A stretch of 64,000 nt of DNA from Holophaga sp. (GTDB lineage Bacteria; Acidobacteriota; Holophagae; Holophagales; Holophagaceae). Position 1 is the first letter of the stretch; every line of letters starts with the position of its first letter. The stretch is taken from the NCBI GenBank assembly GCA_031292735.1, contig JARLGP010000066.1, positions 1 through 64,000 of the forward strand, in the 5' to 3' direction. This document shows positions 8,822 through 52,542 of this stretch, piece after piece. A program made the position numbers and the translations under genes. Below the pieces are notes generated by a model. That model made no database searches. It saw only the letters and a list, made by a program, of their open reading frames with translations, and was not told the origin of the DNA.

Positions 8822-8825
8822 ACCT

Positions 8826-12354: not shown

Positions 12355-12394
12355 CGCTGCCCTGGCCTGGATGGATCAGCGGTTTCCCTTCGGC

Positions 12395-12949
12395 TCAGAC
12401 GGCTTCCTTGGACTCCACAGGGACCTCATGCTCGGCTTCCATGGATCCATCTCGCTCCTTCATCTCCATTTCCTCGCCGGATTCACACCGCGGAAGAGAG
12501 TGGAACTCCCCGCCCCTTTTGAAAAAGATCCTAATTCCATTATCTGCGAGATATCCAAGCCATTTATTGTGCCCTGAAGGAGATTGGATTTTCCGGATAG
12601 GGGATCCGGAACCCTCCAGGTCCACCCGGAAGGTGAACGGGAGTTCGGCATCCAGGCTCTCGTTTACAGCCATGAGCCCTACTTCCAGGAAGGGGCACTC
12701 CTCCTCCAGATCAGACTCCTCCTCGAACTGGAAGACATAGGTTCCACCGGGGGTCAGGGGGAGAACCTTGTGGAGCGCGAGATCCCCTGACGTGGCGGTC
12801 TTTCCGTCGCTCGCATGGAAATGCACGGTCTGGTTGTGGGGATCCGAAGCGAGCACCAATCCATACCCCTCCGCCTGGAGCACCACGGATCCGAACGCCA
12901 GGCATCCCGTCAGGAAACCCTTGAACACCCTGCTGAAGTTCCGTTTCAT
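12395..12949 (-). CDS. Small exported acidic protein, unknown
   Basis: 184 residues; GGGGA lies 6 bp upstream of the ATG. A signal peptide (KGFLTGCLAFGSVVLQAEG, residues 9-27) precedes a beta-rich domain (30-150) with a TYVFQFEEESDLEEECPFLEVGL stretch. The tail is strongly acidic and Glu/Met-rich (ESGEEMEMKERDGSMEAEHE). It resembles nothing I can name. It belongs to the run of lineage-specific exported proteins in this part of the window. Confidence 0.6.
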   Translation of the reverse strand: MKRNFSRVFKGFLTGCLAFGSVVLQAEGYGLVLASDPHNQTVHFHASDGKTATSGDLALHKVLPLTPGGTYVFQFEEESDLEEECPFLEVGLMAVNESLDAELPFTFRVDLEGSGSPIRKIQSPSGHNKWLGYLADNGIRIFFKRGGEFHSLPRCESGEEMEMKERDGSMEAEHEVPVESKEAV

Positions 12950-13269
12950 TTTTTCCCCAATCCAAGCGGCGCACCGGCACCAGGCACAATGCTTGGCACT
13001 GAGCGCTCCGTTATAATCAGTGCATTAAAAGCCCCGTTGGTTCCCTACTGTTTGGCTTCGGCCGGTGGCGGCGGCGCTGCTTGAACTGGAGGAACGGCTT
13101 GAGCCTGGAGCCGACCTGAAGACCAAGGCCCGGGCCATGGCCTCCAAGGGAACCTTTTGCTGAATGATTGCATTAATTATTTGTAACAGACGGAGTGGCC
13201 GCAGAAGGATTTCCGGGCGTGGCCACCCGTTTCGACTTCATGTGCAGGCAAGCCAAGGGGCAGCTTCTG
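12950..13269. other. Intergenic interval with a short coding-like remnant
   Basis: 320 bp between divergently oriented exported-protein genes. It contains a promoter-like TTATAAT at about 13010-13016. A 32-codon GTG-started frame at 13065-13163 (LLELEERLEPGADLKTKARA) has coding-like composition but no recognisable parent, and may be a gene remnant. Confidence 0.3.
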
Positions 13270-14868: not shown

Positions 14869-14885
14869 CTTCCGGGTTGCACCAG

Positions 14886-14909
14886 GGTTATTCCATTACA
14901 ACGGTTTAG
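14886..14909 (-). repeat. Dispersed repeat element, copy 2
   Basis: The minus strand reads CTAAACCGTTGTAATGGAAT then AACC, matching the TAAGCCGTTG...GGAATAACC family. Confidence 0.5.
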
Positions 14910-14916
14910 GGGCCGT

Positions 14917-15035
14917 GGCAAAATAACCTTGACACGCTGCATGCTTACGCTACGGCCCCCCTTGCGACGCATGCGTCGCCAGGGATCTAAGGACCTTATG
15001 CCGGGGCAATGCCGAATCGTCAAGGTTATTTTGGC
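14917..15035. repeat. MITE-like element with 17-bp inverted ends
   Basis: GGCAAAATAACCTTGAC at 14917-14933 and GTCAAGGTTATTTTGGC at 15019-15035 are inverted repeats matching at 16 of 17 positions. Between them lies the perfect palindrome GCGACGCATGCGTCGC (14964-14979). No open frame is present. No clear target-site duplication was seen. Confidence 0.5.
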
Positions 15036-15047
15036 GCAACGGCTTAT
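15024..15047 (-). repeat. Dispersed repeat element, copy 3
   Basis: The minus strand reads AATAAGCCGTTGCGCCAAAA then TAACC. It overlaps the right end of the MITE-like element. Confidence 0.5.
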
Positions 15048-15133
15048 TGGCGTTGACCACGCCATCCTCGATGGGCAGCCCGGCCGCCAACGGCTCATCG
15101 TGAAGGTCATCCTGCATGGTTTCATGCAATTAT

Positions 15134-15171
15134 ATTAACTAGACATTAATTAACATTCCAGGCCAGGATGA
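15134..15171. promoter_or_regulatory. Putative LysR operator, copy A
   Basis: 38 bp that match 16997-17034 at 35 of 38 positions, with the core ACATTAATTA and a shared TTCCAGGCCAGGATGA edge. It lies 39 bp before the glutaminase-like gene. Because the other copy sits in the divergent LysR/panE-like intergenic region, it is probably bound by that LysR protein. Confidence 0.5.
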
Positions 15172-15210
15172 CGCTGCGGACGGCAGGATCGTCCAGCAGG
15201 AGGTGGCACC

Positions 15211-15933
15211 ATGGAGCCCGTGATCCCCAACCCCAAGCAGCCGGCCGTGATCGGCCTAGTCGGTGACCGCAACCCCGCCAACAAGACCCACATTGCCACG
15301 GAACAGGCCCTGGGCCACCTGGCCGAGCCGATCGCCTGGGAGTGGCTGCCGACCGAACAGATCGCCCACCAGCCGGCAAGCCACCTAGCGCGCTACGCCG
15401 GCTTCATCATCACCCCCGGCAGCCCCTACCGGAACATGGAGGGCGCCCTGGAGGCCATCCGTTTCGCCCGGGAACAGGGCGTTCCCTTGCTGGGCACCTG
15501 CGGCGGCTTCCAGCACCTGGTGGTGGAATTCGCCCGCGGCGTGCTGGGAATCGCCGACGCGGACCACGCTGAGAGCAACCCTTCGGCGCCCCGGTTGGTC
15601 ATTACCCCACTCTCCTGCTCCCTGGCCGGGCAGAACCACCCGGTGCACCTGCTCCCCGGTTCCCGTGCCGCCGGGATCTATGGGGTCGAGACCTCGGTGG
15701 AACCCTTCTATTGCAACTTCGGACTCAACCCCGAATTCCGCCCCCAGTTCGAAGCGCGCGGCCTGGTGGTCAGCGGCATCGGGACGGACGGGCAGGTCCG
15801 CGTGCTGGAACTGAGCGGTCACCCGTTCTTCTTCGGCACCCTCTACGTGCCCCAGGCGCGCTCCCAGCCCGGCGCGCCGCACCCCCTGATCGTCGCCCTG
15901 GCGGACGCGGCACGGGCCCGGAACCATCGGTGA
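15211..15933 (+). CDS. CTP synthase C-terminal (class I glutaminase)-like protein
   Basis: 240 residues with a class I glutamine amidotransferase fold like the C-terminal half of CTP synthase: YAGFIITPGSPY, then GVPLLGTCGGFQHLVVEF with the nucleophile Cys near residue 95. The canonical HPE catalytic pair of CTP synthase (as in QFHPE) reads YVPQ here, so His and Glu are both replaced and ordinary glutaminase activity is unlikely. The family includes stand-alone, sometimes selenocysteine-containing CTP-synthase-related proteins of unknown role. It has AGGAGG 7 bp before the ATG and the duplicated LysR-type site upstream. Confidence 0.75.
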   Translation: MEPVIPNPKQPAVIGLVGDRNPANKTHIATEQALGHLAEPIAWEWLPTEQIAHQPASHLARYAGFIITPGSPYRNMEGALEAIRFAREQGVPLLGTCGGFQHLVVEFARGVLGIADADHAESNPSAPRLVITPLSCSLAGQNHPVHLLPGSRAAGIYGVETSVEPFYCNFGLNPEFRPQFEARGLVVSGIGTDGQVRVLELSGHPFFFGTLYVPQARSQPGAPHPLIVALADAARARNHR

Positions 15934-16022
15934 TCGGTGAGCCGTCTGGGCGTCGGGAAAGGAGCCCGGGCTCGCCTGGCGGCCGGGGGTTCTCGCGGGC
16001 AGGCAGAACGGATCGCCGGAAT

Positions 16023-16988
16023 TCAGGAGGCTGTCCCTGCCTTCTTCGGCCCTGCGGAACGCCCCATGGAGATACCGCCGAGCGCCGCCAGCACCGGCAG
16101 CAGGCCCGGGTGGTTCTCCGCCCCGGCGCGGACGGCCGCGTACACATGCCGGCAGGGGCTCCGCGGCCCGTCCAGGGCGCGCAGGACCACGCCCGGAGGA
16201 GGCGGCGCCGGGACGGCCAGGCGCGGCACCAGGGCCACCCCGCAGTCCGCGGCCACCAGGGCGAACACGGCCGACCAGTCGTTGGCATGATGGACGATGT
16301 CCGGGCTGAATCCGGCCGCGGCGCAGGCGGCCAGGCCCAGCTCCTGGCATGGCCCGCGCATGGCCCCCACGATCCAGGGTCCCTTCGCCAGGTCCTGGAG
16401 GTCCAGGGCGGTCCGGCCGGCCAGGGGGTGGTCCTCGGCCAGGGCCGCCAGGAGGGGATCGTCCTGCAGCTCCCGTCGGTGGTAGCGCGGATCGCCGGAC
16501 ACCGGACCGTCGCGGTGATCCACCGTGATGACCAGGTCCAGGTCGCCGGCGTCCAACCGGGTGAAACAGTCGGGCGCTTCGCTTTCCAGGATCGACAGCC
16601 GGAGCCTCGGGCGCTCCCGGCGCAGCTGGATCAGGGCGGGGACCACGATGCCGGTGATGGCGGTGGCGAAGGCGCCGATGCGCACCCGGCCCACGGTGCC
16701 CTGGTCGAAGGCCGCCAGGTCCGCCCGGACGCGCTGCCACTGGGCATCCATGGCCGCGGCATGGTCCAGCAGGAGCATGGCCTGGGGCGTCAGGCGCACC
16801 CCGCGGCCCTGGGCGATGAGCAAGGGCACGCCGGCCTCGCGGCTCAGGGCGGCGATCTGCTGGGAAACGGCCGAAGGGGTCAGGTTCAACGCGCCGACCG
16901 TGGCCACCACCGTGCCGCGCTCCTGGAGCGTCCTGAGCACCCCCAGCCGCCGCAGGTCGATCGTGAAGGTTTCACTGCGTTTATTCAT
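16023..16988 (-). CDS. LysR-family transcriptional regulator
   Basis: 321 residues. The winged helix-turn-helix occupies residues 10-70 (LRTLQERGTVVATVGALNLT, PSAVSQQIAALSREAGVPLL), followed by a periplasmic-binding-like effector domain (90-300) with GRVRIGAF and the late GVALVPRLAV strand. It is divergent from the ketopantoate reductase-like gene, 72 bp apart, with a putative operator between them. The same sequence recurs before the glutaminase-like gene convergent with it, suggesting that both flanking genes are targets. Confidence 0.9.
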   Translation of the reverse strand: MNKRSETFTIDLRRLGVLRTLQERGTVVATVGALNLTPSAVSQQIAALSREAGVPLLIAQGRGVRLTPQAMLLLDHAAAMDAQWQRVRADLAAFDQGTVGRVRIGAFATAITGIVVPALIQLRRERPRLRLSILESEAPDCFTRLDAGDLDLVITVDHRDGPVSGDPRYHRRELQDDPLLAALAEDHPLAGRTALDLQDLAKGPWIVGAMRGPCQELGLAACAAAGFSPDIVHHANDWSAVFALVAADCGVALVPRLAVPAPPPPGVVLRALDGPRSPCRHVYAAVRAGAENHPGLLPVLAALGGISMGRSAGPKKAGTAS

Positions 16989-24092: not shown

Positions 24093-27077
24093 TCACTGCT
24101 CCGCAACGCCGGTGACGATCTGCACCGAGTGCACGGCCGCAAGCTGTTCCGCGGTGAGGGGGACCTCGAACAGGAAGGATTGCTGTGCCAAAGGCCCGGA
24201 ACCTTCGGTGGGCGCCTGGGGCGCGAAGGGAACGTCCTGGAGCACCTGCCCCTGGGCGTCCAGGACCAGGGCGTGGCAGGAGCCAGGTGTCGGCGCCGGC
24301 TGGGAGTCGGAAACATTCAGGACAGCATCCCGGGGGAACACCAGGGCGCCGTTCTCCAGGATGCCCGAAACCAGGATGCCAGGGCCGGCGCTGGGGGGCG
24401 GTTCGCTGGCCGCCGCATCGGCGTCCAGGGCGTTCAGGAAATTCCGGTAGGTGTACCGGCTGATCCAGCCCTGGTCGGTATAGCTCATCACATCCTGGTA
24501 GATCTCGGGGTTCTTCATCACCGGAGCGTCGGTTCCATAGGCCGCCACATCCACCCCCCAGGTGCCCAGCCCGGCCGGTGGATCGGGATAATTCAGGTCC
24601 GGATCGCGGGTTCCTCCGTAGGGGGCGTTCTTCAAGCCCAGGGCGTGTCCCAGCTGGTGGATGAGGTAGGCTGGGCCGCCGTTGTCGTAGGCCTCGGAAT
24701 CGGACACGCCGGCCCGGTCCATCACCACCATGGACCGGTTGATGAAACTGCCCGGCGCTCCGTAGACATCCCAGCCCAGGGCGGTGCTGCCCTGGGGCAG
24801 CGGAAACACGCCGACGTAGAACCGCGTGGCATCCTCACGCGTCTGCAACCGCCGGCGCTCCAGCAGCGTGGTGAGCTTCTGGAGATCGGCGTAACCGCCC
24901 TCGGCGGTCAGGGTGATATTCGTGAAGAGGGTGGGCCCCGGCACCAGGTCCAGATCTGCCACCGGCAGCAGCTTCCTGAGCTGCGCCGCCCAATCCTGGA
25001 GGTTGCCGATGGAGCCGGTTACCTGGGTCGACCCATCCGGAGCATAGACCTGCACGGGAATCAGGGTGATCCGCAGGGGCGGCGCGGACACCACGGTCAA
25101 CGGCCTGGGCACGCCGTTCCACGGCCATTTCAGTTTGGCGAAGGCCTCGTCCGGAAAGGACCCCTGCCCGGGTCCGGGCAGGATCTCGGCCAGGAGGGTG
25201 ACCCCCGGCTGGATCCACTCGCCGGACACGTGCAGGTTCCAGGTATCGCCGAGAACCCCGTCCTGGGGATCCTCCGGAATCCCCGTTCCCGGGCAGGGGA
25301 TATTCTGGATCAGCTGGTTCACGCCTCCTTCGACCGGCAATTGCAGGGTGACCCGCACCGTGGGCCGCAGGGCCGGTTGATTGCCGGGTTCATCCGTGTC
25401 GGGATGATTGGCCTGCAGGTACACCCGCAGCAGACCGTCCCGGCCGGCCAGCAAGGGGGTCGGCGTATCCCGCACGGTGGGGCCGATGCCGGAGGGATCC
25501 GAATCGCCCTGGGTGATGCCGGCCAGATCCTGCACGCCCTGGCTCAGCACGACGCTGACGATGCCATCCGACAAGTAATTGGGCTTGGCCACGGTGAACA
25601 AGGAGTCCGGGCCCTGGATCACCCGGTCGTCGGTGAGACCGGCATTGGCGTAATTGAAAGACGCGTTTACGGGCGAGTTGGGGGGGAACGTGGCCTCGGG
25701 AACCTCAATGCTCAGGTACTCGGAATCACGCCCAAGCTTATCGCCGAACAGGGGCACGGTGCCGAAGGCCAGGTGGAACACGTCCTCCATGTGCCTGCCA
25801 TAGAACTTCACCAGGGTCCCCACCGGGCCCCGCCTGGGCACGATCCGGCTCACGATGGCCCGGTGGGGAAGCACGCTGAAGGTCTCGGTGGAAGTGGCGG
25901 TCCCGAATGGGGACTTGAGGGTTAACTGGCCGCTGGCCAGGCTCCGTGCAGAGGCATTCTGGGGCAGCCACCAGTAGTAGGCGCTGCCGTCGGCCGCAGC
26001 CGTCCCTGGAACCGGAACCCCGTTCAGGGTGGCCTGGCTGACCGTGTCCAGGTTGCTCCCGGTGATCTGGAAGATGCCCGAGGTGCTCGCCCCCGAGGTG
26101 GCCCCCAGGGCCTGGATCACCGGGGCGGGAGCCGCGGGCGTCGGCAGCACCTTGAACGGGAGCTGGCTGGCGCAGCTGGTTTGGCCCTGGCTGAGATAGA
26201 TGGTGCCGTCCACGGCGCCGGAAGGCACGGTGGCCAGCACCAGCCCCGGCCCCTGCACCTGGAAATCCCCGTCCAGAACCCGAACGTCGCCGAAGCGCAC
26301 TTCGTCCACGCCGCCCATGTTCTGGAAGTGGATGGCGATTTTCGCGCCCACCCGCCCGGCCTCCGGATAGACCCCCCCCACCGTCGGGTTCGGTTGGGCG
26401 GCCAGCACATCGAAGACGACCGGGTCCGATGCGCCGCCATCGCTCCGGGTCACCACCAGGTTGCAGGGGCCCGTCGGCAGCGAAGGGGCCTGAGGGACCT
26501 GGAAGAGGATCTCCTGGTTGGAAGAGCCGAGCACCGTCGCGCGTTCTCCGCCCAGGGTCACGGAGGGTCCCGGGAAGTCGTCCCCGAAGCCCGAGCCGCT
26601 GATGTAGACCTCCTGTCCCGGCCGGGCCGACAGGGGACCGACTAGCTCGATCGCCGGAGTCGGCAACAGCACCTCGAAGGGCCCGGAGCTGGCGACCGCG
26701 GTGCCATCAGCCCCCAGGAAGTCGAATGAAGTGCTGCCCGGCGGCACCATTTTCTCCAACCAGAAGGTCGCCTGGGTATCGCTCACCACGTTCAGGGCCA
26801 CCGGGTGGCCGGCGATGCTCACCGCCGAAACGGAACTCAGGCCCGATCCGGTCAAGTGGATGGGGGTGCCGGGGCCCCCTTCAGCAGGGGCAAAGGCGGT
26901 GACGGCCAGGGACCCGGACCCGGCGTCCAGGGCCCTCCCGGATGAGCCGCCACACCCGGCCGCCAGGACGGCGAACAGGAGCGCGGCCAGCGCCCCGGCC
27001 GGATTTCGCCAGGTCAGACAAGACTCTTGGCGGCGGGAACCTTGAACAGCGGACATGGGCAACGGGAACGGGTTCAT
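24093..27077 (-). CDS. TIG-domain lipoprotein with degenerate metalloprotease domain
   Basis: 994 residues. A lipobox (LFAVLAAGC) at about residue 42 marks an exported lipoprotein. Residues 55-500 contain at least four IPT/TIG Ig-like repeats (PAEGGPGTPIHLTGSGLSS and relatives). Residues 540-930 resemble a reprolysin-like metallopeptidase: the zinc helix reads HQLGHALGLKNAP and a Met-turn-like DVMSYTDQGW follows. The canonical HELGH Glu is Gln and the third ligand position is not His, so proteolysis is doubtful. No clear ribosome-binding site is seen at 27077, and starts slightly inside are possible. Confidence 0.75.
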   Translation of the reverse strand: MNPFPLPMSAVQGSRRQESCLTWRNPAGALAALLFAVLAAGCGGSSGRALDAGSGSLAVTAFAPAEGGPGTPIHLTGSGLSSVSAVSIAGHPVALNVVSDTQATFWLEKMVPPGSTSFDFLGADGTAVASSGPFEVLLPTPAIELVGPLSARPGQEVYISGSGFGDDFPGPSVTLGGERATVLGSSNQEILFQVPQAPSLPTGPCNLVVTRSDGGASDPVVFDVLAAQPNPTVGGVYPEAGRVGAKIAIHFQNMGGVDEVRFGDVRVLDGDFQVQGPGLVLATVPSGAVDGTIYLSQGQTSCASQLPFKVLPTPAAPAPVIQALGATSGASTSGIFQITGSNLDTVSQATLNGVPVPGTAAADGSAYYWWLPQNASARSLASGQLTLKSPFGTATSTETFSVLPHRAIVSRIVPRRGPVGTLVKFYGRHMEDVFHLAFGTVPLFGDKLGRDSEYLSIEVPEATFPPNSPVNASFNYANAGLTDDRVIQGPDSLFTVAKPNYLSDGIVSVVLSQGVQDLAGITQGDSDPSGIGPTVRDTPTPLLAGRDGLLRVYLQANHPDTDEPGNQPALRPTVRVTLQLPVEGGVNQLIQNIPCPGTGIPEDPQDGVLGDTWNLHVSGEWIQPGVTLLAEILPGPGQGSFPDEAFAKLKWPWNGVPRPLTVVSAPPLRITLIPVQVYAPDGSTQVTGSIGNLQDWAAQLRKLLPVADLDLVPGPTLFTNITLTAEGGYADLQKLTTLLERRRLQTREDATRFYVGVFPLPQGSTALGWDVYGAPGSFINRSMVVMDRAGVSDSEAYDNGGPAYLIHQLGHALGLKNAPYGGTRDPDLNYPDPPAGLGTWGVDVAAYGTDAPVMKNPEIYQDVMSYTDQGWISRYTYRNFLNALDADAAASEPPPSAGPGILVSGILENGALVFPRDAVLNVSDSQPAPTPGSCHALVLDAQGQVLQDVPFAPQAPTEGSGPLAQQSFLFEVPLTAEQLAAVHSVQIVTGVAEQ

Positions 27078-27248
27078 GCCAAAATATATGTCGTTAATAT
27101 TAATTGTCCTGGGGAAATTACCCCTTCAAGCACTCCCCGGGGTCCACGCAAGGGTGAATTAATTCAATCCAGAGGTTGGGAAAAATTGGGCCTTTTATGC
27201 CGGACCGGGAAGCGGGATAGTTTTGACCTTGAGGACAGGAGGTTGGTC

Positions 27249-28043
27249 ATGGATCTTGGACTGAAGGGCAAACGGGCGCTGGTGACCGGTTCAACGGCCG
27301 GCATCGGGCTGGCGACCGCACGCGCGCTGGCGGCCGAGGGCGCCTGGGTCACGGTGAACGGCCGCACCCAGGCGCGGGTCGACCACGCGGTGGAGGATCT
27401 GAGGCGCGAGCTTCCCCAGGCCACCGTGGCCGGCATCGCGGCCGATCTCGGCAGCGGCGAAGGCTGCAAGGCGCTGATCGACCAGCTGCCGGACCTGGAC
27501 GTGCTGGTGAACAGCCTGGGCATCTTCGAGCCCAAGCCGTTCGAGGAGATCCCGGACGAGGACTGGATGCGCTTCTTCGAGACCAACGTGCTGAGCGGCA
27601 TCCGGCTCGCGCGCCACTACATGGGCGGGATGCGGGCCCGCAACTGGGGGCGGATCGTGTTCGTCTCCAGCGAATCGGCCCTGCAGATTCCAGCGGAGAT
27701 GATCCACTACGGCATGACCAAGACCGCCCAGCTCGCGGTGGCCCGCGGGCTCGCCGAAACGCTCACCGGCACCGGCGTCACGGTCAACAGCGTGCTGCCC
27801 GGGCCGACCGCCTCGGAGGGCGTCGGCGGCTTCGTCGCCCAGCTGGCCGCGAGCCGGGGCGTCGATGCGGCCACCGTGGAACGGGAATTCTTCGCCACGG
27901 CCCGTCCTTCCTCGATCATCCAGCGGTTCGCCAGGACGGACGAGGTGGCGGCGATGATCGCCTACGTCTGCGGAGTCCCCGCCTCGGCAACCACGGGCGC
28001 ATCGCTCAGGGTCGATGGCGGCGTGGTGCGGGCGATCGGGTAA
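27249..28043 (+). CDS. Short-chain dehydrogenase/reductase
   Basis: 264 residues; AGGAGG lies 7 bp before the ATG, and in-frame codons further upstream are ignored. The cofactor motif TGSTAGIGLA is at residues 14-23, with NSLG near 92, the catalytic Ser in VSSESALQIP and YGMTK near 160. The C-terminal VDGG is typical of the classical SDR family. An Arg after the second beta strand (NGRTQARVD) suggests NADP(H). Substrate unknown. The stop codon is the first base of a dispersed repeat. Confidence 0.9.
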   Translation: MDLGLKGKRALVTGSTAGIGLATARALAAEGAWVTVNGRTQARVDHAVEDLRRELPQATVAGIAADLGSGEGCKALIDQLPDLDVLVNSLGIFEPKPFEEIPDEDWMRFFETNVLSGIRLARHYMGGMRARNWGRIVFVSSESALQIPAEMIHYGMTKTAQLAVARGLAETLTGTGVTVNSVLPGPTASEGVGGFVAQLAASRGVDAATVEREFFATARPSSIIQRFARTDEVAAMIAYVCGVPASATTGASLRVDGGVVRAIG

Positions 28044-37360: not shown

Positions 37361-37528
37361 AGGATGATCCGCCCCTCGGGAGGGCCGGATCCTCGGCCGG
37401 GCGAGGAAGGGACGGTCCCGGATGATTCGCTGTTGCGTCGGGCCGTCTAGATATTAATATTTAATAGAGACTGCCGCGCCCCGGAGCCGTATGTTGAAAA
37501 CCCGATGCCATCGCCGCCAGGGCCTGCC

Positions 37529-38749
37529 ATGACCCGCGGCCGCCGCTGGCTGGCGGGGGCCGTGCTGGGCGGGGCGCTGGTGGCGCTCGCCCTGTGGTTC
37601 GCGGTCCGGGACGCCGGAGAGGGGCAGCGCTTCACCACGGCCCCGGCCTCCCGCCAGGATCTCAAGGACAACGTCATGGCCAATGGCGAGATCCAGGCGC
37701 GCAGCCGGGTCAACGTCGGCACCAGCGTCACCGGGCAGATCAAGGCCCTGCACGTGGTGGACGGCCAATGGGTGGCGCGGGGGGACCTGCTGGTCACCCT
37801 GGACCAGGAATCCTGCAGGCAGGAGCTCAACCAGGCCCTGCTGGGGCTGCGCATGGCCGGCCACGACCAGGAGAAGGCCGAGGCCGCCTGGCGCAAGGGG
37901 AAGGACACCTGGTCGCGCCAGGAGGCCCTGTTCCAGGAGGGCCTGATCTCCGCCGAGGACCACCAGAACGCCGGTCTGGAACGGGAGCGGCTGGCCGCCG
38001 AACAGCAGCGGGCCGAGGCCGCCGTGGAGCAGGCCGAGGCCCTGGCCGCCCAGAAGCGGGACGCCCTGGCCAAGACGGTGCTCCGGGCGCCCATGGACGG
38101 CCGGGTCACGAGGCTCCAGGCGGAACCGGGGGAGACCGCCGTGGCCGGGCAGACCAATGTCGCCGGGGCCGTGCTGATGGTCATCGCCCGGCTGGACGAG
38201 ATGCTCGCCGAAGTGAAGGTCGGGGAGCTGGACGTGGTGAAGCTGAAGCCCGGCCAGCCGGCCGAGGTGCAGGTGGATGCCCTGCCGGGCCAGGTGTTCC
38301 CGGGCCAGGTGCTGGACCTGGCCACCGCGGTGAGTCCCGGCCTCGGCCCGGCCGACCCCTCCTCCCAGGCCCAGAGCTACCGGATGCGGGTCCGGATCCG
38401 GGCCTCCGGCGCGAGCCTGGCCGCCCTGCTGCCGGGCATGAGCGCCCGGGTGGCGGTGCTCACCACGGAAAAAACCCAGGCGCTCACCGTTCCGCTCCAG
38501 GCCATCCAGGACCGGGAGACCCGGCCGGGCGCGCTGGGCCTGATCCTGGGCTCCCAGCCGGTGGTGTTCGTGGTGAAGGACGGCGTGGCCGAGGAACGGC
38601 CCGTGCGGCTGGGGCTATGCACCCGGCAGCGGGCGGAAGTGCTGGAGGGGGTGCGGGAAGGCGAGCAGGTCGTCACGGGGCCGTCCAAGGCCCTGGCCAC
38701 GCTGGTCTCCGGCACCCGGATCCAGGTGCTGGCCCCGGGCGGGCCGTGA
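37529..38749 (+). CDS. MacA-like periplasmic adaptor (membrane fusion protein)
   Basis: 406 residues from the ATG at 37529 (AGGG upstream); an ATG at 37505 is possible. One N-terminal transmembrane anchor (WLAGAVLGGALVALALWFAV) is followed by the biotinyl-lipoyl domain (GEIQARSRVNVGTSVTGQIK), a helical hairpin coiled coil (about 105-185), and beta-barrel and membrane-proximal domains. It would link an inner-membrane transporter to an outer-membrane channel. It overlaps the downstream permease gene by 4 bp. No TolC-like gene is in the window. Confidence 0.88.
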   Translation: MTRGRRWLAGAVLGGALVALALWFAVRDAGEGQRFTTAPASRQDLKDNVMANGEIQARSRVNVGTSVTGQIKALHVVDGQWVARGDLLVTLDQESCRQELNQALLGLRMAGHDQEKAEAAWRKGKDTWSRQEALFQEGLISAEDHQNAGLERERLAAEQQRAEAAVEQAEALAAQKRDALAKTVLRAPMDGRVTRLQAEPGETAVAGQTNVAGAVLMVIARLDEMLAEVKVGELDVVKLKPGQPAEVQVDALPGQVFPGQVLDLATAVSPGLGPADPSSQAQSYRMRVRIRASGASLAALLPGMSARVAVLTTEKTQALTVPLQAIQDRETRPGALGLILGSQPVVFVVKDGVAEERPVRLGLCTRQRAEVLEGVREGEQVVTGPSKALATLVSGTRIQVLAPGGP

Positions 38750-40026
38750 GCCGGCCGCCGTCCATCCACTGGCGGGAGGCGCTGGACGCGGCCGCGCGCA
38801 GCCTGTGGGCGCACCGGCTCCGCTCCATGCTCACCTCGCTGGGCATCATCATCGGGGTGGCCTCGGTGGTCATCGTGGTCCAGCTCACCAAGAGCCTGGA
38901 GGCCCGGATCATGGCCGACGTGAACCGGCAGGGCAGCCACACCTTCTTCCTCAGCCCCTGGGTGGCTCCCAGCGTCTGGCTGAAGGGGGCCAAGGTCCGC
39001 TTCCAGCCGCTGGCCCGGGAACAGATCGGGGAGCTGCGGGAGCTGGTTCCGGAAATCCTGATCGCCTCGCCGGAAGCCTATGTCTTCGCGCCCAACGCCG
39101 TGGCCAAGGCCAACGGGGCCTCGCTCCGGATGCTGCTGCGGATGGTGGACGAGAACGGCCTGGAACTGGCGAACCTGGACCTCCAGGCCGGGCGGGATTT
39201 CACCGTCACCGACCGGACCACCCGGGCCCCGGTGGCCATCCTGGGCGAACGGATCGCCCAGGAGCTGGGCTTTTCCCCGGCCAGCATCGGCAAGACCTTC
39301 ACCATCGGCGGCCAGACCGCGGAGCTGATCGGCATCCTCAAGCGGCAGGGCGAAGTGCCGTTCATGCCCAGGCAGGACGAGGAGGCCGCCCTGTTCGGTC
39401 CGGACGGGCAGGTGTTCATCCCCCAGGGGAGCTTCAAGGGCCTCTACCAGAGCGTCCATGCGGACCGGAACACCCAGTGGCGGCTCCAGCTGGACCCGAA
39501 ACTGCCGCTGCCCGAGGCGGAGGAGCGCCTGCGCCTCGCCCTGCGCCGGGTCCGCGGCCTGCGCGGCGACGACGTGGACAACTTCGACCTGAGCACCAAC
39601 CGCAAGGAGGTGGAAACCGTGGAGCGGCTGGGCCGGACCCTGCTGGCCGCCAGCGCCGCCATGGTCTCGGTGAGCCTCCTGGTGGGCGGCATCGGGGTGA
39701 TGAACATCATGCTGGTGAGCGTGCAGGAGCGCACCCGGGAGATCGGCCTGCGCAAGGCGCTCGGCGCCCGGCGCCGGGACCTCCTGGCCCAGTTCCTGAT
39801 CGAGGCCTCGGCCCTGTGCACCGCCGGCGGCATCCTCGGCCTGGCCCTGGGCGCGGGCCTGGGCACCCTGCTCAGCCGGCTGGTCATGCACCACGTGGGC
39901 AGCATCCCGCTCTGGTCCCTGGCCGCGGCGCTGCTGGGGCCGGCGCTGGTGGGCCTCGCCTTCGGCATCTATCCGGCGCGGAAGGCCGCCCGGCTGGACC
40001 CCATCGAGTCCCTCCGCTACGAGTGA
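38746..40026 (+). CDS. MacB-like ABC transporter permease lacking the ATPase domain
   Basis: 426 residues from a GTG overlapping the adaptor stop (GTGA). It corresponds to the membrane part of MacB: TM1 (LTSLGIIIGVASVVIVVQLT) near residue 30, a large periplasmic domain (55-285), and three C-terminal helices with the FtsX-type GGIGVMNIMLVSVQERTREIGLRKALGARRRD segment. The N-terminal nucleotide-binding domain of MacB is absent and no ATPase gene adjoins, so the ATPase must be supplied from elsewhere. Its end overlaps the convergent SPFH gene by 10 bp. Confidence 0.88.
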   Translation: MSRPPSIHWREALDAAARSLWAHRLRSMLTSLGIIIGVASVVIVVQLTKSLEARIMADVNRQGSHTFFLSPWVAPSVWLKGAKVRFQPLAREQIGELRELVPEILIASPEAYVFAPNAVAKANGASLRMLLRMVDENGLELANLDLQAGRDFTVTDRTTRAPVAILGERIAQELGFSPASIGKTFTIGGQTAELIGILKRQGEVPFMPRQDEEAALFGPDGQVFIPQGSFKGLYQSVHADRNTQWRLQLDPKLPLPEAEERLRLALRRVRGLRGDDVDNFDLSTNRKEVETVERLGRTLLAASAAMVSVSLLVGGIGVMNIMLVSVQERTREIGLRKALGARRRDLLAQFLIEASALCTAGGILGLALGAGLGTLLSRLVMHHVGSIPLWSLAAALLGPALVGLAFGIYPARKAARLDPIESLRYE

Positions 40027-40952
40027 GGGGGGCCGCCCGGTTCCGGCAGCGCCGCCAGGAGCGGGGCGAGCACGGCGGACTGGGGCGGGATCAGGGTGAT
40101 GGCGGCCTTGCCGCCCAGCAGCTTCTGGGTCTCCAGGATGTGGAACATGGCCTGGGACACGTCCTGGTCCCGGGAGATCTCCTCCAGGGCGGCGCCCACG
40201 ATCTCCGGCCGCACGGCGCCGGCCTTGGCGAACTCCACTGCGGCCTGGCGCTCGGCGGTGCTGGTGATGATGTTCACCTGGTTGGTGCCGTCCTGCTTGA
40301 TGCTGGAGGTCACCTGGCGCAGGCGGTTCACCACCTTGCTCTCGATCTGGTGGATCATGTCGGCGTCCCGGAAGTGCACCTTGCGGATGTAGATGGAGCC
40401 CAGCCGGTAGCCCCAGTCGTGGGACAGCGGGGAGACCTCGTTGCGCACGGTCTGGCTCATGGCGTGCCGGTTGCTCAGCATGTCCGCCAGGGGCAGGTTG
40501 GAGAGGCAGCGCACGGTGGAGTTGCTGACGTTGGCCGCCAGGGAGCCCCGGGGATCGGTGTTCTTGAACAGGTAGGCCACGGGGTCGCTGATGAACATCT
40601 CGAACCAGATGCCGATGCCCATGGGGGCGCCCTCTTCGGAGTTCACCGGCGAGCTGCGCAGGTATTCCTGGTCCAGGCGGAGGTCGATCTCGTAGCAGGT
40701 GCCGATCCAGTTCACGATGGGGGCGCGCCAGCCCAGGCGGATCCACAGGAAGTGCAGGCCGGGCTCGTCCAGCACCGCCACCACCTTGCCGAACAGCACG
40801 TAGACCAGGCAGCGGCGCTCCCGGACGATGGCGTAGAAGCCCAGGGCACGCAACAGCCGCGAGCACAGCGGAACCAGCAGGAACAGCGCGGCGAAGGTCA
40901 CCGCGGCGGCCACCAGGAGGCTCAGGATTTCGTGGGGAACGGGGATCTCCAT
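40017..40952 (-). CDS. SPFH/Band-7 membrane protein, HflC-like
   Basis: 311 residues: one N-terminal transmembrane helix (about 8-32), then an SPFH domain (40-210; LVYVLFGKVVAVLDEPGLHF) and a helical C-terminus with the EFAKAGAVRPEIV segment. SPFH proteins form large membrane-anchored rings, such as HflKC around FtsH. The start codon shares one base with the stop of the other SPFH gene, so the two are coupled and probably form a hetero-oligomer. It is the last gene of the run that starts with the TOMM precursor. Confidence 0.82.
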   Translation of the reverse strand: MEIPVPHEILSLLVAAAVTFAALFLLVPLCSRLLRALGFYAIVRERRCLVYVLFGKVVAVLDEPGLHFLWIRLGWRAPIVNWIGTCYEIDLRLDQEYLRSSPVNSEEGAPMGIGIWFEMFISDPVAYLFKNTDPRGSLAANVSNSTVRCLSNLPLADMLSNRHAMSQTVRNEVSPLSHDWGYRLGSIYIRKVHFRDADMIHQIESKVVNRLRQVTSSIKQDGTNQVNIITSTAERQAAVEFAKAGAVRPEIVGAALEEISRDQDVSQAMFHILETQKLLGGKAAITLIPPQSAVLAPLLAALPEPGGPPHS

Positions 40953-41938
40953 CACTTCACCTCCAGCACGACGCGGCTGGCCTCGCCATAGAGGCCGAGG
41001 CGGACATTGCGCACATAGGCGTCCAGCGCCCCGGTCCCGCCGCTGGCCTTGAGCGCCGCGATCTGGCTGGCCAGGAGCCGCAGGGGCTCCACCTCGGCCT
41101 GGGCCTTGAGGGTCTCGATCTCCACCGCCCGCCGGGACTGGACGATCTTCTGGTCGGCGGAGGCCTGGGCCAGGCTGATGTCCGAGGACACCTGGTTGTG
41201 CGCGGTGTTGATGGCCGCCAGGGCGGATTCCACATCCGGCGGCGGGTCGATGGCGGTGATGAGGGAGGCTTCCAGGTGGATCCCGTAGCGGGCCGAGGCG
41301 GAGGCGCACTCCTTGTCCATGTGCTCGTTGAGGTCCCTCAGGTTCTTCCGCAGGTCGTTGATGGAGATGCCGGTCTGCACCGCCGGCACGCCGTCGGCGT
41401 CGGGCGGGGCCTCGAAGTTGGCGATGCGCTCGCGCAGCACCGACACGAAGTAGCCCATCACGTGGGCGATGGGGTTCTTGACGGCGAACAGGTAGGCGTA
41501 CAGGTTGCGCTCGCTCACCTGGTAGCGGATCTGCCCGGTCAGGCCGGTGTTGAGCTGGTCCTTGGTCACCGCCTCCAGGATGGTGCCGCCGTTGTTGGCC
41601 GAGGAGGAGAGCGGATCCCAGGCCATGTTCACGGTCTGGGTGGCCACCGACACCTTGTGCACCTGCTCCCAGGGCCACTTGAAGTAGGGCCCGCCGGGCG
41701 GGATCACCCGCACCTGGGGCACCCCGTAGCGCAGCTTCTCCTCCGGGTTGAGCATCTGGGAGATGGGATCCTCGGCCGTGCTGGCGTTGCCCACCCGCTC
41801 CGCCCGCCCGAAGGAGGTCTTCACCGCCCGCTCGTTCTGGTCCACGGTGTAGATCCCCGCCGCCAGGTAGCGCACCAGGAACCAGACGATGAACCCCAGG
41901 ACGCACCCCAAGGGAATTCCCACGGTCAAATCGAACAT
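40952..41938 (-). CDS. SPFH/Band-7 membrane protein, HflK-like
   Basis: 328 residues with AAGGAG before the ATG. A transmembrane helix (about 5-27) precedes an SPFH domain with DQNERAVKTSFGRAERV and VIPPGGPYFKWPWEQVHKVS. A charged helical region (230-300; SADQKIVQSRRAVEIETLKA) is typical of prohibitin/HflK-type proteins. It lies 59 bp after the SagB-type gene on the same strand, so it is plausibly co-transcribed with the TOMM genes, possibly for self-protection or membrane placement; that link is inference. Confidence 0.82.
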   Translation of the reverse strand: MFDLTVGIPLGCVLGFIVWFLVRYLAAGIYTVDQNERAVKTSFGRAERVGNASTAEDPISQMLNPEEKLRYGVPQVRVIPPGGPYFKWPWEQVHKVSVATQTVNMAWDPLSSSANNGGTILEAVTKDQLNTGLTGQIRYQVSERNLYAYLFAVKNPIAHVMGYFVSVLRERIANFEAPPDADGVPAVQTGISINDLRKNLRDLNEHMDKECASASARYGIHLEASLITAIDPPPDVESALAAINTAHNQVSSDISLAQASADQKIVQSRRAVEIETLKAQAEVEPLRLLASQIAALKASGGTGALDAYVRNVRLGLYGEASRVVLEVK

Positions 41939-41997: not shown

Positions 41998-43350
41998 TCA
42001 CCCCGAAAGGGCGAATTCCCCCACGGAGGATTCCCGGGTGAAATCCAGCCCGGAAGCCTGGGCGAAGAGCTGGCTGTCCCCGGTCCCGATGGCGCAGGGG
42101 GCCAGGCCCAGGGCGGTGGCCACCAGGTACATCTGCTGATAGAGGACGCCGGTGTTCTTCAGGATGAGCGAATAGGCGATGCCCTGGTACTTCCAGCTCA
42201 CCCGCTGGACCCGGGCGGCCAGGGTGAACAGGATGTCCGGCGCGGGGGCGGTCCCCATGGCCTCCGCGCCGCCGCGCAGCAGCTGCCCCGCGGCCTCGGA
42301 GCCCGGCCAGGGCTCCAGCGCGTGGCTGCCGGCGGCGTAGTGGTAGAAGCCCGGGGCCAGCCCGGCGCACCGGGACACGGTGAGGTACAGTTCGATCTCG
42401 TGCAGGCCTCCGCCCCCGGGGCAGCAGCCGGAGGCCGCCTCGTAGGCCCGCCCCGCCCCGGGGTCGGCCGGCGCCACCGCGCGGATCCTGGCCACGTAGT
42501 GAAGGAAGGTGCCCAGCTGTCCGAGGGTGACGGGGTGCTGGCCGGGCGTGCGCAGGGACCGGCGCGCCTCCAGCACGCGGAAGAACGGCGGGCTGGAGGC
42601 GGGCAGGCGGGGTTCCGGCAGCGGGATGGCTTCCGCCCGGGCCGGCTTCAGGGCCGGGAGCGGATCCAGCTCGCCCAGGAAGCGGAAGGTGCCCCCCACC
42701 GGGTCGCCATGCCGGCCCTGCCGGCTGCGGCTGTGGAACAGGAGGTCGTGGAATTCCCACTGGCGCAGGGCCGGATCCCGGTCTTCCGGCAGCTGGCCTT
42801 CGCCGACGCAGGGGGCCACGGCGCCGGCCGAGGCCAGCATGGCGAGGAACGCCCGGGCCATGGGCGGGTCCAGGCCGGAAAGGCCGTCGGCGTTGACGGG
42901 CTGGCACAGGCGGCCCACCGGCTCCAGCAGCCCCGGATCATGCAGCAGCACCCGGGCGAACCCCAGCGGGCTTTCCAGCACCGCCCCGTCCGGGCCCCGG
43001 CGGATCCAGGCGAAGCGCGACAGCCGCCAGGGGCCGTTCCCGGCGGCCGGCTGGAAGCGGAACTCCCGGGTCAGGGGTTCCAGGGTGGCCAGCCGGCGCC
43101 CGTCCCGGGTGAGCGAACAGCCGATCCACCCCTCCTGCTCCAGCAGGGCCAGGAGGTAGCGCAGCTCCAGGGAAGGGCACAGCTCATCCTCGGTGCTGGC
43201 GCCCCGGGCCAGGGCCCGAAGCATGGCCCGCTGGTCCGCGCCGGCGGCTCCGGCCAGGCGCAGGCGTTTGCGGCCGGGCTCCTCCAGCCCGCCGGCATCC
43301 TCCATGAGCCGCACCGAGGGTTTCAGGACGAGGGCAAGGCCGAACGCCAT
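41998..43350 (-). CDS. SagB-type FMN dehydrogenase (TOMM azoline oxidase)
   Basis: 450 residues. The C-terminal half (about 255-445) is the SagB/nitroreductase fold: FRVLEARRSLRTPGQHPVTL, SGCCPGGGGLHEIELYLTVS, GFYHYAAGSHALEPW and the late VSWKYQGIAYSLILKNTGVLYQQMYLVATALGLAPCAIG, a strong SagB signature. The first 250 residues form a helical/winged-helix region seen in longer members. The enzyme oxidises thiazolines or oxazolines to azoles with FMN. Its ATG follows the cyclodehydratase stop directly (TAGATG), so expression is coupled. Confidence 0.9.
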   Translation of the reverse strand: MAFGLALVLKPSVRLMEDAGGLEEPGRKRLRLAGAAGADQRAMLRALARGASTEDELCPSLELRYLLALLEQEGWIGCSLTRDGRRLATLEPLTREFRFQPAAGNGPWRLSRFAWIRRGPDGAVLESPLGFARVLLHDPGLLEPVGRLCQPVNADGLSGLDPPMARAFLAMLASAGAVAPCVGEGQLPEDRDPALRQWEFHDLLFHSRSRQGRHGDPVGGTFRFLGELDPLPALKPARAEAIPLPEPRLPASSPPFFRVLEARRSLRTPGQHPVTLGQLGTFLHYVARIRAVAPADPGAGRAYEAASGCCPGGGGLHEIELYLTVSRCAGLAPGFYHYAAGSHALEPWPGSEAAGQLLRGGAEAMGTAPAPDILFTLAARVQRVSWKYQGIAYSLILKNTGVLYQQMYLVATALGLAPCAIGTGDSQLFAQASGLDFTRESSVGEFALSG

Positions 43351-45585
43351 CTAGATGAAGACCGGGGTCGGATTGAGGTCGGCCTCCCGCAGGGGCCGCT
43401 CCAGCCAGCCCATGGCCACCGGCACGTCGTACAGCCGGCCCGGCGCGAAGCGGGCCCAGAAGTGGCGAAGGCCGGGCACGATCACCTTGGCCACCGGCAT
43501 GCCGGCGTCCGCCCGGGTCAGGTCCAGCACCAGCATCTCCATGCCCCTGGCCTCCACCAGCCCCTGGCAGTGGCGGATATCGGCCAGCAGGTCGCCGCTG
43601 GCGGCGTTGGGGAAATCCTCCATCCGCCTGGCCGGAACCCGGGGATCGGGCACCAGGTAGGGCTGGTTTTCCAGGGTCGCGGTGCGCAGCCAGCGCAGCG
43701 TCTCCTCGTTGCCCAGCGGGGCCTGGGCCTCGGGCCCGACCCCGGCGACGAACTGGTTCAGCTCGGCGCAGGCGCGCAGCAGGGCGACGCCCGGGTCCAG
43801 GCTGCAGCCCAGGCCGAACAGCACCTGGCCATGGGTCTCCCGGCGGCAGGACAGGGCGGCGAAGGCGGGGATGCCCAGGTCGTGGGTGAGGTCCAGCACC
43901 CACAGGTCCCGGTCCAGGGTGACGTAGTGGGCCGCCAGGTCGGCGAAGTAGCTCTGGCCGAAGCTGGCCAGGTCCACCCCGGGCCTGGGCAGCCGGTTGT
44001 ACCACCAGATGGCGGTGGCATCCCGTTCCACCAGCTCCAGGAAGCCCTGGAGCACGGCCTCTTCCAGGTTGTTGCCGGCGGCGTTGCCGTTGGAGCAGGC
44101 GCGGCAGCACCGGGCCCGGGGTTCGGGGCTGGCCCCGGGGCCGGGGAAGTACAGGAACTGGGTGGGCAGCAGCTTCTCCCGCTCCCCGGTGAGGGACCAG
44201 ACCGGCGTCCACGGGAGCACCTGGTCCGGGTCCAGGGGCTCGGGCACCGAATTGAAGTGGGACCCGCGGGCATTCCACTGGTCCCGCTCCTGGAACTGCC
44301 GGTCGCTGAAGCCCATCACCGCGTTGGGGTGGATGGCGCCCTCGCCCAGCTCCCGGTAGCGGCCCAGGACCTGGAACTCCGTGCCGGTGTATTCGGTGGA
44401 ATAGCGCTCCAGGCTTTCGGCCAGGGCGCTGGCCTTGGCCTGGACCAGGGTGGGGCCCTTGCCGGCGCTGCGGTGCCGGAAGCTGACCTTGAAGCACTCC
44501 ATGCTGTCCACCGGGATGGCGCCGTTGGCGCCGCCCATGCAGACCTGGAACACCCCGCCGGTGCCGGGCGGGGGTTCCACCCGGGATACGATCCCGGCGA
44601 TGGGGCTCACCAGGTGGCCATATTTCTCCAGGGTCGCTTCGGGCGGGGCCACCCGGTGGCCGCTCCCTTCGGAGGGGGCGGCACGGCGGCCCACCAGGCG
44701 CACCGGCCCCGGGCGCCGCTGGGGCGGATCGCCGCAGATGGGGCAGGCGGGGTAGCGCACCAGCGCGTGGGTCTTGGAAACCCAGGTGCGGGTGTCCATG
44801 CTCAGCAGTTGGCCCTCCAGGTTGTGGGGGGCCCCGGCCAGGAACTTGGCGATCTCCACGGCGGCCAGGCCGCAGGCCGCCGCGACGGCCGCCGGAAGGG
44901 CCGCCACCGCGGTGGGCATGGGCTCCGGCCAGCCGTTCCGGCCGCGCAGGAATTCCTGCACCTGCTGGTTGCGCCGCAGCCGGTGCCGCAGGCAGCCGAA
45001 ACAGCCGGACGGCCCCGGGGAGCCCGGGAACAGGGGCCCGATCCAGAACTCCCGGCCCAGGGGCCGCAGCACCATCCAGGGCCGGCCGGCCTCCCGGGCC
45101 GCCCTGGCCCACTCCAGCAGGTCCCGGCGCAGGTAATCGTCGGTGACCGCCACCTCCAGGTCGGGATCCCCCGGGGTCAGGTCCAGCCCAGCCGCCTCCA
45201 GGCCGTGGAGCAGGGGCGCGGGATCCACGGACCCCGCGCCGCGCACCCGGACCCGGCCCGAGCGGAGGGCGGTCCAGGCAGGGCCCGGGTCCAATCCCAG
45301 GCCCGCCCAGAAGGCTTCCGACGGCGCGTCCAACCCCGGCACCTTGTCCGCGAGATGCCCCTTCTTTTCGAGGAATTCCAGGACGTAGTAGACTTCGGTC
45401 GGCTTCAAGGGGGCCAGCGCGGCCGCGATCTGCTCCGGCGTCCGGACGCCGTCCAGGAGGGGAAGCACCCGTTCGAACAGGGCTCCCTGAAGGGTCCAGG
45501 AACCCTCTTCGGATACCAGGATCATCCCCTCTCCGGGGACGATTCCTGCTTTGAGGTGCGCCTTGAGCGCGGGGTGTCGGAGCAT
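43351..45585 (-). CDS. Fused TOMM leader-binding/YcaO cyclodehydratase (C-D fusion)
   Basis: 744 residues. Residues 1-90 resemble the winged-helix leader-recognition (RRE) part; 90-300 is the E1-like/ocin-ThiF-type domain with a zinc tetrathiolate (CFGC at 195-198, CPIC at 281-284). Residues 320-744 are the YcaO domain with ATP-binding glutamates in LVQAKASALAESLERYSTEY and the NNLEEAVLQGFLELVERDA motif. It ends NPTPVFI, a proline-containing C-terminus as in active YcaO enzymes. It uses ATP to turn cysteines of the precursor peptide into thiazolines. It starts 32 bp after the precursor gene. Confidence 0.93.
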   Translation of the reverse strand: MLRHPALKAHLKAGIVPGEGMILVSEEGSWTLQGALFERVLPLLDGVRTPEQIAAALAPLKPTEVYYVLEFLEKKGHLADKVPGLDAPSEAFWAGLGLDPGPAWTALRSGRVRVRGAGSVDPAPLLHGLEAAGLDLTPGDPDLEVAVTDDYLRRDLLEWARAAREAGRPWMVLRPLGREFWIGPLFPGSPGPSGCFGCLRHRLRRNQQVQEFLRGRNGWPEPMPTAVAALPAAVAAACGLAAVEIAKFLAGAPHNLEGQLLSMDTRTWVSKTHALVRYPACPICGDPPQRRPGPVRLVGRRAAPSEGSGHRVAPPEATLEKYGHLVSPIAGIVSRVEPPPGTGGVFQVCMGGANGAIPVDSMECFKVSFRHRSAGKGPTLVQAKASALAESLERYSTEYTGTEFQVLGRYRELGEGAIHPNAVMGFSDRQFQERDQWNARGSHFNSVPEPLDPDQVLPWTPVWSLTGEREKLLPTQFLYFPGPGASPEPRARCCRACSNGNAAGNNLEEAVLQGFLELVERDATAIWWYNRLPRPGVDLASFGQSYFADLAAHYVTLDRDLWVLDLTHDLGIPAFAALSCRRETHGQVLFGLGCSLDPGVALLRACAELNQFVAGVGPEAQAPLGNEETLRWLRTATLENQPYLVPDPRVPARRMEDFPNAASGDLLADIRHCQGLVEARGMEMLVLDLTRADAGMPVAKVIVPGLRHFWARFAPGRLYDVPVAMGWLERPLREADLNPTPVFI

Positions 45586-45617
45586 CGTGGATCCTCAGAA
45601 GCGGCGTGCGGAACCAG

Positions 45618-45953
45618 TTACCAGCAGAGGCACAGACAGCCCCCGCCGCCGCCGCAGCCGCAACCGCCGCCGCACCTGCAGCCGCCACCACAACCGCCGC
45701 CGCAGGGGCCCGCCTCGCCGGAACCCTCCAGCGCCTCCCCGGCCAGGGCCATTTCCGGCACCCTCGGCAGCACCAGGTGGAACACCTTTTCCGAATTTTC
45801 CAGCACGTTCAAGGTCACCCCTTCGGGCACCTCGATGCCCTGGGATTCCAGGGCCGCCCTGGGGTCGGCCATCAGGGCCGCCTTGAATCCCTCGTCGGCC
45901 CAGGCTTTGGCAATGACGCGATCCGAACTATCAAGCAAAAGGGTACCGTTCAT
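45618..45953 (-). CDS. TOMM precursor peptide, NHLP leader with nine-Cys core
   Basis: 111 residues with AAGGAGG 6 bp before the ATG. Residues 10-68 match the nitrile-hydratase-like leader (NHLP) class: AKAWADEGFKAALMADPRAA, EGVTLNVLENSEKVFHLVLP. After a short Ala/Glu/Gly-rich hinge (68-82) comes a core of Gly and Cys with Cys at 84, 88, 92, 94, 98, 100, 106, 108 and 110 and a terminal Trp. The core has no Ser or Thr, so only thiazoles are expected. Cleavage probably falls in the hinge (after AG at 71-72 or AG at 81-82). It is first in the operon, before its cyclodehydratase and dehydrogenase. Confidence 0.92.
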   Translation of the reverse strand: MNGTLLLDSSDRVIAKAWADEGFKAALMADPRAALESQGIEVPEGVTLNVLENSEKVFHLVLPRVPEMALAGEALEGSGEAGPCGGGCGGGCRCGGGCGCGGGGGCLCLCW

Positions 45954-47795
<1,842 letters not shown>

Positions 47796-51423: not shown

Positions 51424-52542
51424 ATGATGCAACCCGCGGACAGGCTCAGCAAGGTCGTTTCCGGGCCCATCCGGGCCATCGCCGAAGGGGCTCCCCCGGA
51501 CGCGGTACCCATGGGCCTGGGCGAACCGGGCTGGGCGCTGCCGGAGCCGGCCCTGGCGGCCTTGGCCCGGCAGCAGGGCCGCTGCGGCTACGGCCCCAAC
51601 GCCGGGCTGCCCGAACTGCAGGCGGCGGTGGCCTCCTACTACGGGGTGCAGACCCCGCAGGTGATGCTGGGCGCCGGCAGCCAGGCGGTGCTGTTCGCCC
51701 TGTTCCAGGCCTGGCTCAATCCGGGCGACGCGGTGCTGGTGCCCGATCCGGGCTTCGTGTCGTACCCGAACCTGGCCCGGCTGGCCGAAGCCGAGCCGGT
51801 GCGCTACCCCCTGGCCGCGGATTTCACCCTGGACGCCGCGGCCTTCCGGGCCGTGCTGGACCGGACCCCCGCGGCCAAGATGGCGGTGGTGAACCACCCG
51901 GGCAACCCCACCGGGGCCGGCACCTCCCGCCAGGCCCTGGCCGAAGTGGCCGAGGCCTGCGCCGCGCGCGGGATCCTGCTGCTCTCCGACGAAGTCTACC
52001 GGGAGCTGTGCCTGGGCCCCTGCGAGCCGTCGCTGCGCGAGGTGAGCGACACCGGACTGGTGCTCAGTTCCACCAGCAAGGCCTGGGGCGCCCCCGGGCT
52101 GCGGGTGGGCTGGGCCATCGGCGACCCGGCCTGGCTGGTGCCGGCGCGCCTGGTGCACGTGAACATGTCCACCACCCTGGCGCGGCCGGCCCAGCTGGCC
52201 GCCCTGGCGCTGCTGCAGGCGTCCGCCACGGTGCTGCCCGAAGGCCGCGAGCAGCTGCGGGTGCGCTGGGAGGCGTTCTCCGAGGCCTACACCGAGGCCT
52301 TCGGCCTGAGCCCGCGCCGGGCGGTGGGCGGGTTCTACCACTGGCAGCCCCTGCCCGCTTCGGCCCTGGCCGACCCCATGGCCTTCTGCCTTCGCCTGCG
52401 CGACGAAGGCCGGGTGGTGGTGGTGCCGGGCACGGCCTTCGGCCCGGGCGGCCGCGGCCACATCCGGCTCAGCTACGCCGGCGATCCGGTCCAGATCCGG
52501 GAGGGCGTCCGCCGCCTCGCCCCGTTCTGGCGCGAAGCCTGA
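51424..52542 (+). CDS. Class I/II PLP aminotransferase
   Basis: 372 residues. The PLP pocket shows [40 protein letters not shown] and the Schiff-base lysine in [16 protein letters not shown] near residue 222; the C-terminal Arg is in GHIRLSY. This is fold-type I, aspartate-aminotransferase-like. It probably removes the amino group of the imported compound as the first catabolic step. It lies 34 bp downstream of the binding-protein gene. Confidence 0.92.

Follow-up and report, generated by a model that had tools for sequence, protein, structure and literature searches.

A predicted thiazole-rich peptide from an NHLP-leader precursor with a Gly/Cys-rich core in Holophaga

What does a Holophaga cell make from a small protein that ends in a run of glycine and cysteine and is encoded beside two enzymes of azole formation? 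The question is raised by a stretch of 64,000 nucleotides (positions 1 to 64,000 of contig JARLGP010000066.1, assembly GCA_031292735.1), hereafter the window, for which a first-pass annotation had predicted a thiazole-rich RiPP. Our analysis points to a probable natural product rich in thiazoles, of a generally known kind, whose precursor belongs to a family in which Cys residues hardly ever adjoin one another. It is very likely that the Gly/Cys precursor would be converted to a linear azole-containing RiPP by leader docking, YcaO cyclisation and SagB oxidation, with up to nine thiazoles.

The precursor gene (45618..45953, minus strand) encodes 111 amino acids, an NHLP leader followed by a Gly/Cys core. 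The translation scored 76.7 bits against TIGR03793 (E 9.3e-22, cut-off 50.9), which bears out the nitrile-hydratase-like leader named in the first-pass annotation. A Shine-Dalgarno-like site (AAGGAGGAG, 45956..45964, minus strand) lies just 5' of the ATG, and its letters are identical in L001, a 16,580-base sequence from a Holophagaceae bog MAG. When 77 leader codons were compared with those of the L001 orthologue, differences fell at 13 first, 10 second and 27 third codon positions, with 18 synonymous and 17 non-synonymous codons. The family listed at E <= 0.001 comprised 57 proteins, the window's own included, and the YcaO gene begins 32 bp downstream of the precursor. An NCBI record of a Holophaga relative already carries the name NHLP precursor. 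Plus-strand frames longer than the precursor frame overlap positions 45618-45953, and no sign of a protein family was noticed for them. The Shine-Dalgarno-like site, the codon-position differences, the 57-protein family and the short distance to the YcaO gene together indicate that this is a real gene and not a chance GC-rich frame.

Seven of the 57 proteins (P0037, P0038, P0051, P0054, P0056, P0059 and P0062) were dropped as truncated, out of frame or without a Gly/Cys core. The remaining 50 and the L001 copy gave 51 sequences for comparison, from which seven divergent members were set apart to leave 44 close members. A wider search, with a profile that already contained Gly/Cys cores, scored the 7991 candidates that had the most words in common with it. 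The best 120 of its 191 matches included at least 68 new proteins, 67 of them with a core of 12 residues or more, and three of the wider set, from Pirellulales, Planctomycetaceae and Isosphaeraceae MAGs, are labelled by NCBI as NHLP precursors.

The leader occupies residues 1-83 (45705..45953, minus strand) and retains the AWAD and VLP..P blocks of the family (alignment A1, 41 sequences). It has no Cys before residue 84, and the CxxCSC metal site of nitrile hydratase is accordingly absent. The A1 profile matched MprE7, in its NMR structure 8tb1 (E 2.1e-20), and also nitrile hydratase alpha chains. An L(X)4L docking motif, LAGEAL, spans Leu70 to Leu75 (45729..45746, minus strand), the same residue numbers as in MprE7, and the pattern L..E.L is present in all 44 close members. 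In MprE7, Leu70 and Leu75 are described as required for MprC activity, and the RRE of MprC binds helix 1 as well as this motif (PMC12455567). By our reading of the alignment, Ala14 and Trp17 of MprE7 correspond to A15 and W18, which are invariant in the window's family. The MprE7 contacts Gln7 and Gln11 are replaced, by D or E (42/43) and mostly by R (38/43), respectively, and the Mpr and window enzymes therefore need not be interchangeable. A Gly-Gly cleavage motif, given as a mark of the NHLP family in the 2010 account (PMC2887384), was not found in the window's leader; within the last 12 leader residues it occurs in 7 of the 44 close members and is absent from 37. Since the TIGR03793 cut-off is exceeded but Gly-Gly is missing, we claim NHLP membership for the leader domain, as judged from its sequence, and not for the canonical cleavage route.

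Two enzyme genes follow the precursor on the same strand. The first (43351..45585, minus strand; 744 aa) encodes a fused cyclodehydratase with an N-terminal winged-helix domain (RRE-like by homology to LynD), an E1-like leader-binding domain and a YcaO domain. It scored 145.7 bits against TIGR03882 (cut-off 36.9) and 263.2 bits against TIGR03604 (cut-off 219.25), and also matched PF02624 and PF21084. The alignment with LynD covers residues 8-742 (E 4.7e-167), with the catalytic regions, the NPTP tail and two CxxC pairs in register, and that with TruD runs across residues 7-742. The second gene (41998..43350, minus strand; 450 aa) starts immediately 3' of the YcaO-fusion stop and encodes a SagB/ThcOx-type dehydrogenase predicted to oxidise azolines to azoles. 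It reached 145.2 bits against TIGR03605 (cut-off 78.4), matched PF22767 and PF00881, and aligned with CyaGox over residues 71-449 (E 1.1e-56), including the WKY..AYSLILK stretch; McbC is weakly related. The adjacent YcaO and SagB enzymes of the first-pass annotation were thus recovered next to the precursor, all three TIGR models being exceeded.

When the whole window was compared with L001, blastn returned a single match, 42000..46067 (minus strand), of 4107 columns at 82.6% nucleotide identity, and this match holds the three genes. Outside it, protein comparison gave a single weak match between the two sequences (26946-28043; 32% over 182 aa). Because this is the lone block shared by blastn, the precursor, YcaO fusion and SagB genes form one unit placed in different surroundings. 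The gene context of the Gly/Cys precursor type was read in these two loci; the YcaO-fusion relatives at 43 other loci are far more distant, with identity in the top segment not exceeding 50%.

Genes beside the cassette in the window appear to be separate from it. A Band-7/SPFH protein (gene a, 40952..41938, minus strand; PF01145, 67.7 bits) is adjoined by a second (gene b, 40017..40952, minus strand; PF01145, 49.5 bits). Of the 93 genomes in the class of G001, the genome that L001 comes from, 11 carry copies of gene a (71-89% identical), which supports a host of that class for the window, presumably Holophagae by the label of L001; gene b stood beside gene a in four loci by blastn and was 83-89% identical in 3/3 loci searched. 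The three gene-a loci compared over 16 kb had surroundings largely unlike the window's. The pair was rejected as part of the cassette: L001 lacks both genes, and since none of the 11 genomes with gene a had a YcaO-fusion match (E 1e-60), this neighbour is independent of the cassette. A MacA-like adaptor (37505-38749, plus strand) and a MacB/FtsX-type permease (38746-40026, plus strand) were likewise rejected as an exporter, being on the opposite strand, convergent and without an L001 relative; no ATPase gene was recognised between or right after them (37505-40026). On the other side of the cassette, an aminotransferase gene (51424-52542, plus strand) lies near amino-acid ABC transporter genes and argG; its best NCBIfam model is GntC (arginine cyclodehydratase), at 201 bits far under the cut-off of 415.

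The core (residues 84-111; 45621..45704, minus strand) has nine Cys, at positions 84, 88, 92, 94, 98, 100, 106, 108 and 110, with 15 Gly and single further residues of Arg, Leu, Leu and Trp. The translation agrees with the 28-residue core, lacking Ser and Thr and ending in CLCLCW, that had been described earlier; "pure Gly/Cys" fits 24 of the 28 residues and overlooks the other four. The core had also been called unrecognised. No other close member has an identical one, but it is not isolated, given the 44 close (itself included) and at least 67 wider Gly/Cys cores. The 44 close members carry 43 distinct cores, all of which stay Gly/Cys-rich; 43 of the 44 members end in Cys-x-Cys-x, and Arg directly precedes the first core Cys in 33 of the 44. 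Cys makes up 32-34% of the cores, those of the wider set included. Among the first 51 sequences, a core holds 5 to 14 Cys, and Ser and Thr are tolerated, 16 of the 51 cores having neither (the core of P0016 was cut too early in this count).

No two cyclisable residues (Cys, Ser or Thr) are adjacent in the window's core. By single-residue shuffling, 2.6 adjacent Cys pairs were expected in this core alone, and 41 of 2000 shuffles were as low as the zero observed, a weak contrast. Across the 44 close cores there were none, against about 125 on shuffling, and the 67 cores of the wider set (from the best 120 of 191 matches) had one pair against about 159. Since the naive single-residue shuffles take no account of repeats like GGGC, and the family members are homologous, these counts are descriptive and not a probability. 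The sole CC among the 51 cores is in P0053, one of the seven divergent members; the dropped P0038 holds an adjacent pair where its frame seems broken.

From these parts we infer docking, ring formation, ring number and cleavage as follows. The folded leader would use helix 1 and the L(X)4L motif to dock on the RRE-like domain of the YcaO fusion, as suggested by homology to MprE7 and MprC. Core Cys would be converted to thiazolines by the YcaO domain with ATP, and oxidation to thiazoles would be the task of the SagB-type enzyme with its FMN. A protease encoded outside the cassette would cut the leader between about residue 76 and Pro83, on the C-terminal side of the docking motif. Because ring formation uses up the carbonyl of the residue before each Cys, cyclisation of the first Cys would necessarily place Pro83 (Arg in most relatives) in the product, and the cut would then have to fall before it. 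The predicted product is a flexible Gly-linked chain of at most nine isolated, never fused, thiazoles with a hydrophobic aromatic end. The pathway enzymes do stand next to the precursor; nine thiazoles is an upper bound. CcaB cyclised 8 of 20 Ser/Thr/Cys residues, CcaB with CcaC gave eight rings, and the C-terminal residues of truncated cores were left unmodified, as described in PMC10676384; with so many candidate and C-terminal residues spared by that enzyme, nine rings may be too many here. Full processing of the core, if it occurs, would yield a very thiazole-dense ribosomal peptide from two recognised enzymes alone.

Incomplete cyclisation is also the starting point of the main competing explanation, which we regard as unlikely though worth weighing: that the product is a partly modified metal binder, a chelator or store in which thiazol(in)es form at only part of the Cys residues and the leftover thiols, chiefly those of the Cys-x-Cys-x end, coordinate copper or another soft metal. 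That end is kept in all but one close member, the shared block has no exporter or immunity gene, and CcaB, as reported in PMC10676384, illustrates that a YcaO enzyme can spare many candidate residues. Against such a role, the scanned neighbours include no clear metal gene, the MacA-like adaptor reached 88.1 bits against the CzcB metal-efflux model, far under its cut-off of 319.3, a dedicated dehydrogenase suggests azole formation, and Cys makes up about a third of the cores, well beyond their ends.

Gly/Cys and CxC patterns are found in metal-binding proteins, and the precursor could for this reason be taken for an unmodified, metallothionein-like protein that sits beside TOMM genes by chance; the NHLP leader above its cut-off, the L..E.L motif kept without exception, the 32 bp to the YcaO gene and the sharing of the cassette with L001 as a block make this very improbable. 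The frame is equally improbable as a low-complexity GC-rich artefact or a decayed precursor, for all its GGC repeats, the 67% GC of the window and the apparent loss of the Gly/Cys frame, within the core or ahead of it, in P0037, P0038 and P0056, since leader and frame are kept across the 44 close members and the Shine-Dalgarno-like site and third-position excess of leader differences stand against it.

We return to the thiazole-containing RiPP and to the systems that it resembles. Microcin B17 is made by separate McbB, McbC and McbD proteins and carries fused bis-azoles formed from adjacent Ser and Cys. The likeness to it that had been drawn earlier holds for the Gly-rich core of a linear azole peptide and is otherwise loose: the window combines an NHLP leader with a fused enzyme, and since cyclisable residues never adjoin in its core, fused bis-azoles cannot form there. 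The enzymes of the window are homologous to the cyanobactin enzymes LynD, TruD and CyaGox. Cyanobactins have a short leader, PatA/G-type proteases and macrocyclisation (in part in PMC4603692), none of which is seen in the window's cassette. Heterocycloanthracin and anabaenasin have Gly-Cys repeats or Gly- and Cys-rich precursors, and are set apart by description as other TOMM groups, with NHLP precursors listed separately, in PMC4603692.

The closest parallels are among NHLP leaders themselves, for which the TOMM kind has been known since 2010 (PMC2887384). The precursors described there share with the window's a nitrile-hydratase-like leader without CxxCSC, an adjoining gene for a fused cyclodehydratase-docking protein and a hypervariable core; in the window's family Gly-Gly is mostly missing, and the core is nearly all Gly/Cys without adjacent Cys. 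Most clusters drawn in that paper include an NHLM exporter, whereas the window's shared block has none, and 12 precursors are given for Pelotomaculum against one precursor-type match in G001, a MAG that may be incomplete. Thiazole chemistry on NHLP leaders is also already known: in the MprE system, with ten precursors, an NHLP leader, a YcaO enzyme with an RRE (MprC) and an FMN oxidase (MprD) lead to thiazoles (PMC12455567), and we liken the window's enzyme pairing to MprC and MprD by description, alongside the shared L(X)4L at Leu70/Leu75. CcaB and CcaC form azoles on the nitrile-hydratase-like leader peptide CcaA (PMC10676384). Nostatin A (PMC11583998) and carnazolamide (PMC10676384) are azole-bearing products from NHLP-type leaders as well; they are described with extra dehydrated residues, a sactionine bond or methylation, and the window's shared block has no genes for these. 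Three features appear new to us: Gly/Cys cores in which no Cys adjoin, a distribution that by record labels takes in two phyla, and the stripped cassette in two loci; no description of such a family was found in open-licence PMC listings and selected text passages.

The block common to the window and L001 has no exporter, protease or immunity gene, and NHLM export genes were found neither there nor among the window neighbours scanned. Elsewhere in G001, on contigs other than that of the cassette, lie two NHLM-like ABC1/ABC2 pairs whose best models are TIGR03796 and TIGR03797, below cut-off, the first member of each pair covering its model from the peptidase end. Cleavage and export in trans could therefore occur, and an antibacterial exported in this way is our first guess at the activity. 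In another acidobacterium (L093, genome G278, 6045-16463), an NHLP ending in LCCCW lies near a 43% identical YcaO fusion, with the frame of a C39-peptidase ABC transporter within 10 kb. A broader picture, which we offer tentatively and consider somewhat unlikely as a whole, is of a polythiazole proteusin family in Holophagaceae and Planctomycetota, with core length and spacing freely rewritten except that Cys are never adjacent, a minimal cassette without exporter or immunity in the two loci read, and a product that may act inside its producer or as a metal ligand and not as a classical bacteriocin.

The cassette is patchily distributed in the genomes compared. Among the 93 genomes of the class, three had a YcaO-fusion match (E 1e-60) and three a leader match (E 1e-5), and of the latter G001 alone has a Gly/Cys core. 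A profile search of the phylum (A2) matched 36 of 396 genomes; in the 30 loci read, the sole Gly/Cys core was that of G001, and the others encode either a nitrile hydratase alpha chain or a different NHLP. In viral contigs, 15 stretches matched a pattern and none was confirmed. At one further locus (L062, genome G075), positions 7021-7742 hold two tandem NHLP-like ORFs with few Cys, and no YcaO-fusion relative was seen in the 16 kb read.

With so many natural cores attached to a single conserved leader, the family lends itself to testing how spacing is dealt with by a YcaO enzyme. NHLPs that adjoin YcaO genes in other Acidobacteriota (L064, L066 and L069) carry Cys runs; the leader class thus does not force the absence of adjacent Cys, which raises the question of why they are excluded here and occur there. 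At L064 (genome G310, 1504-2340), the NHLP core consists of Cys runs (ACCCCPCCCDGSCCP) and adjoins a distant YcaO gene, a spacing opposite to that of the window's family.
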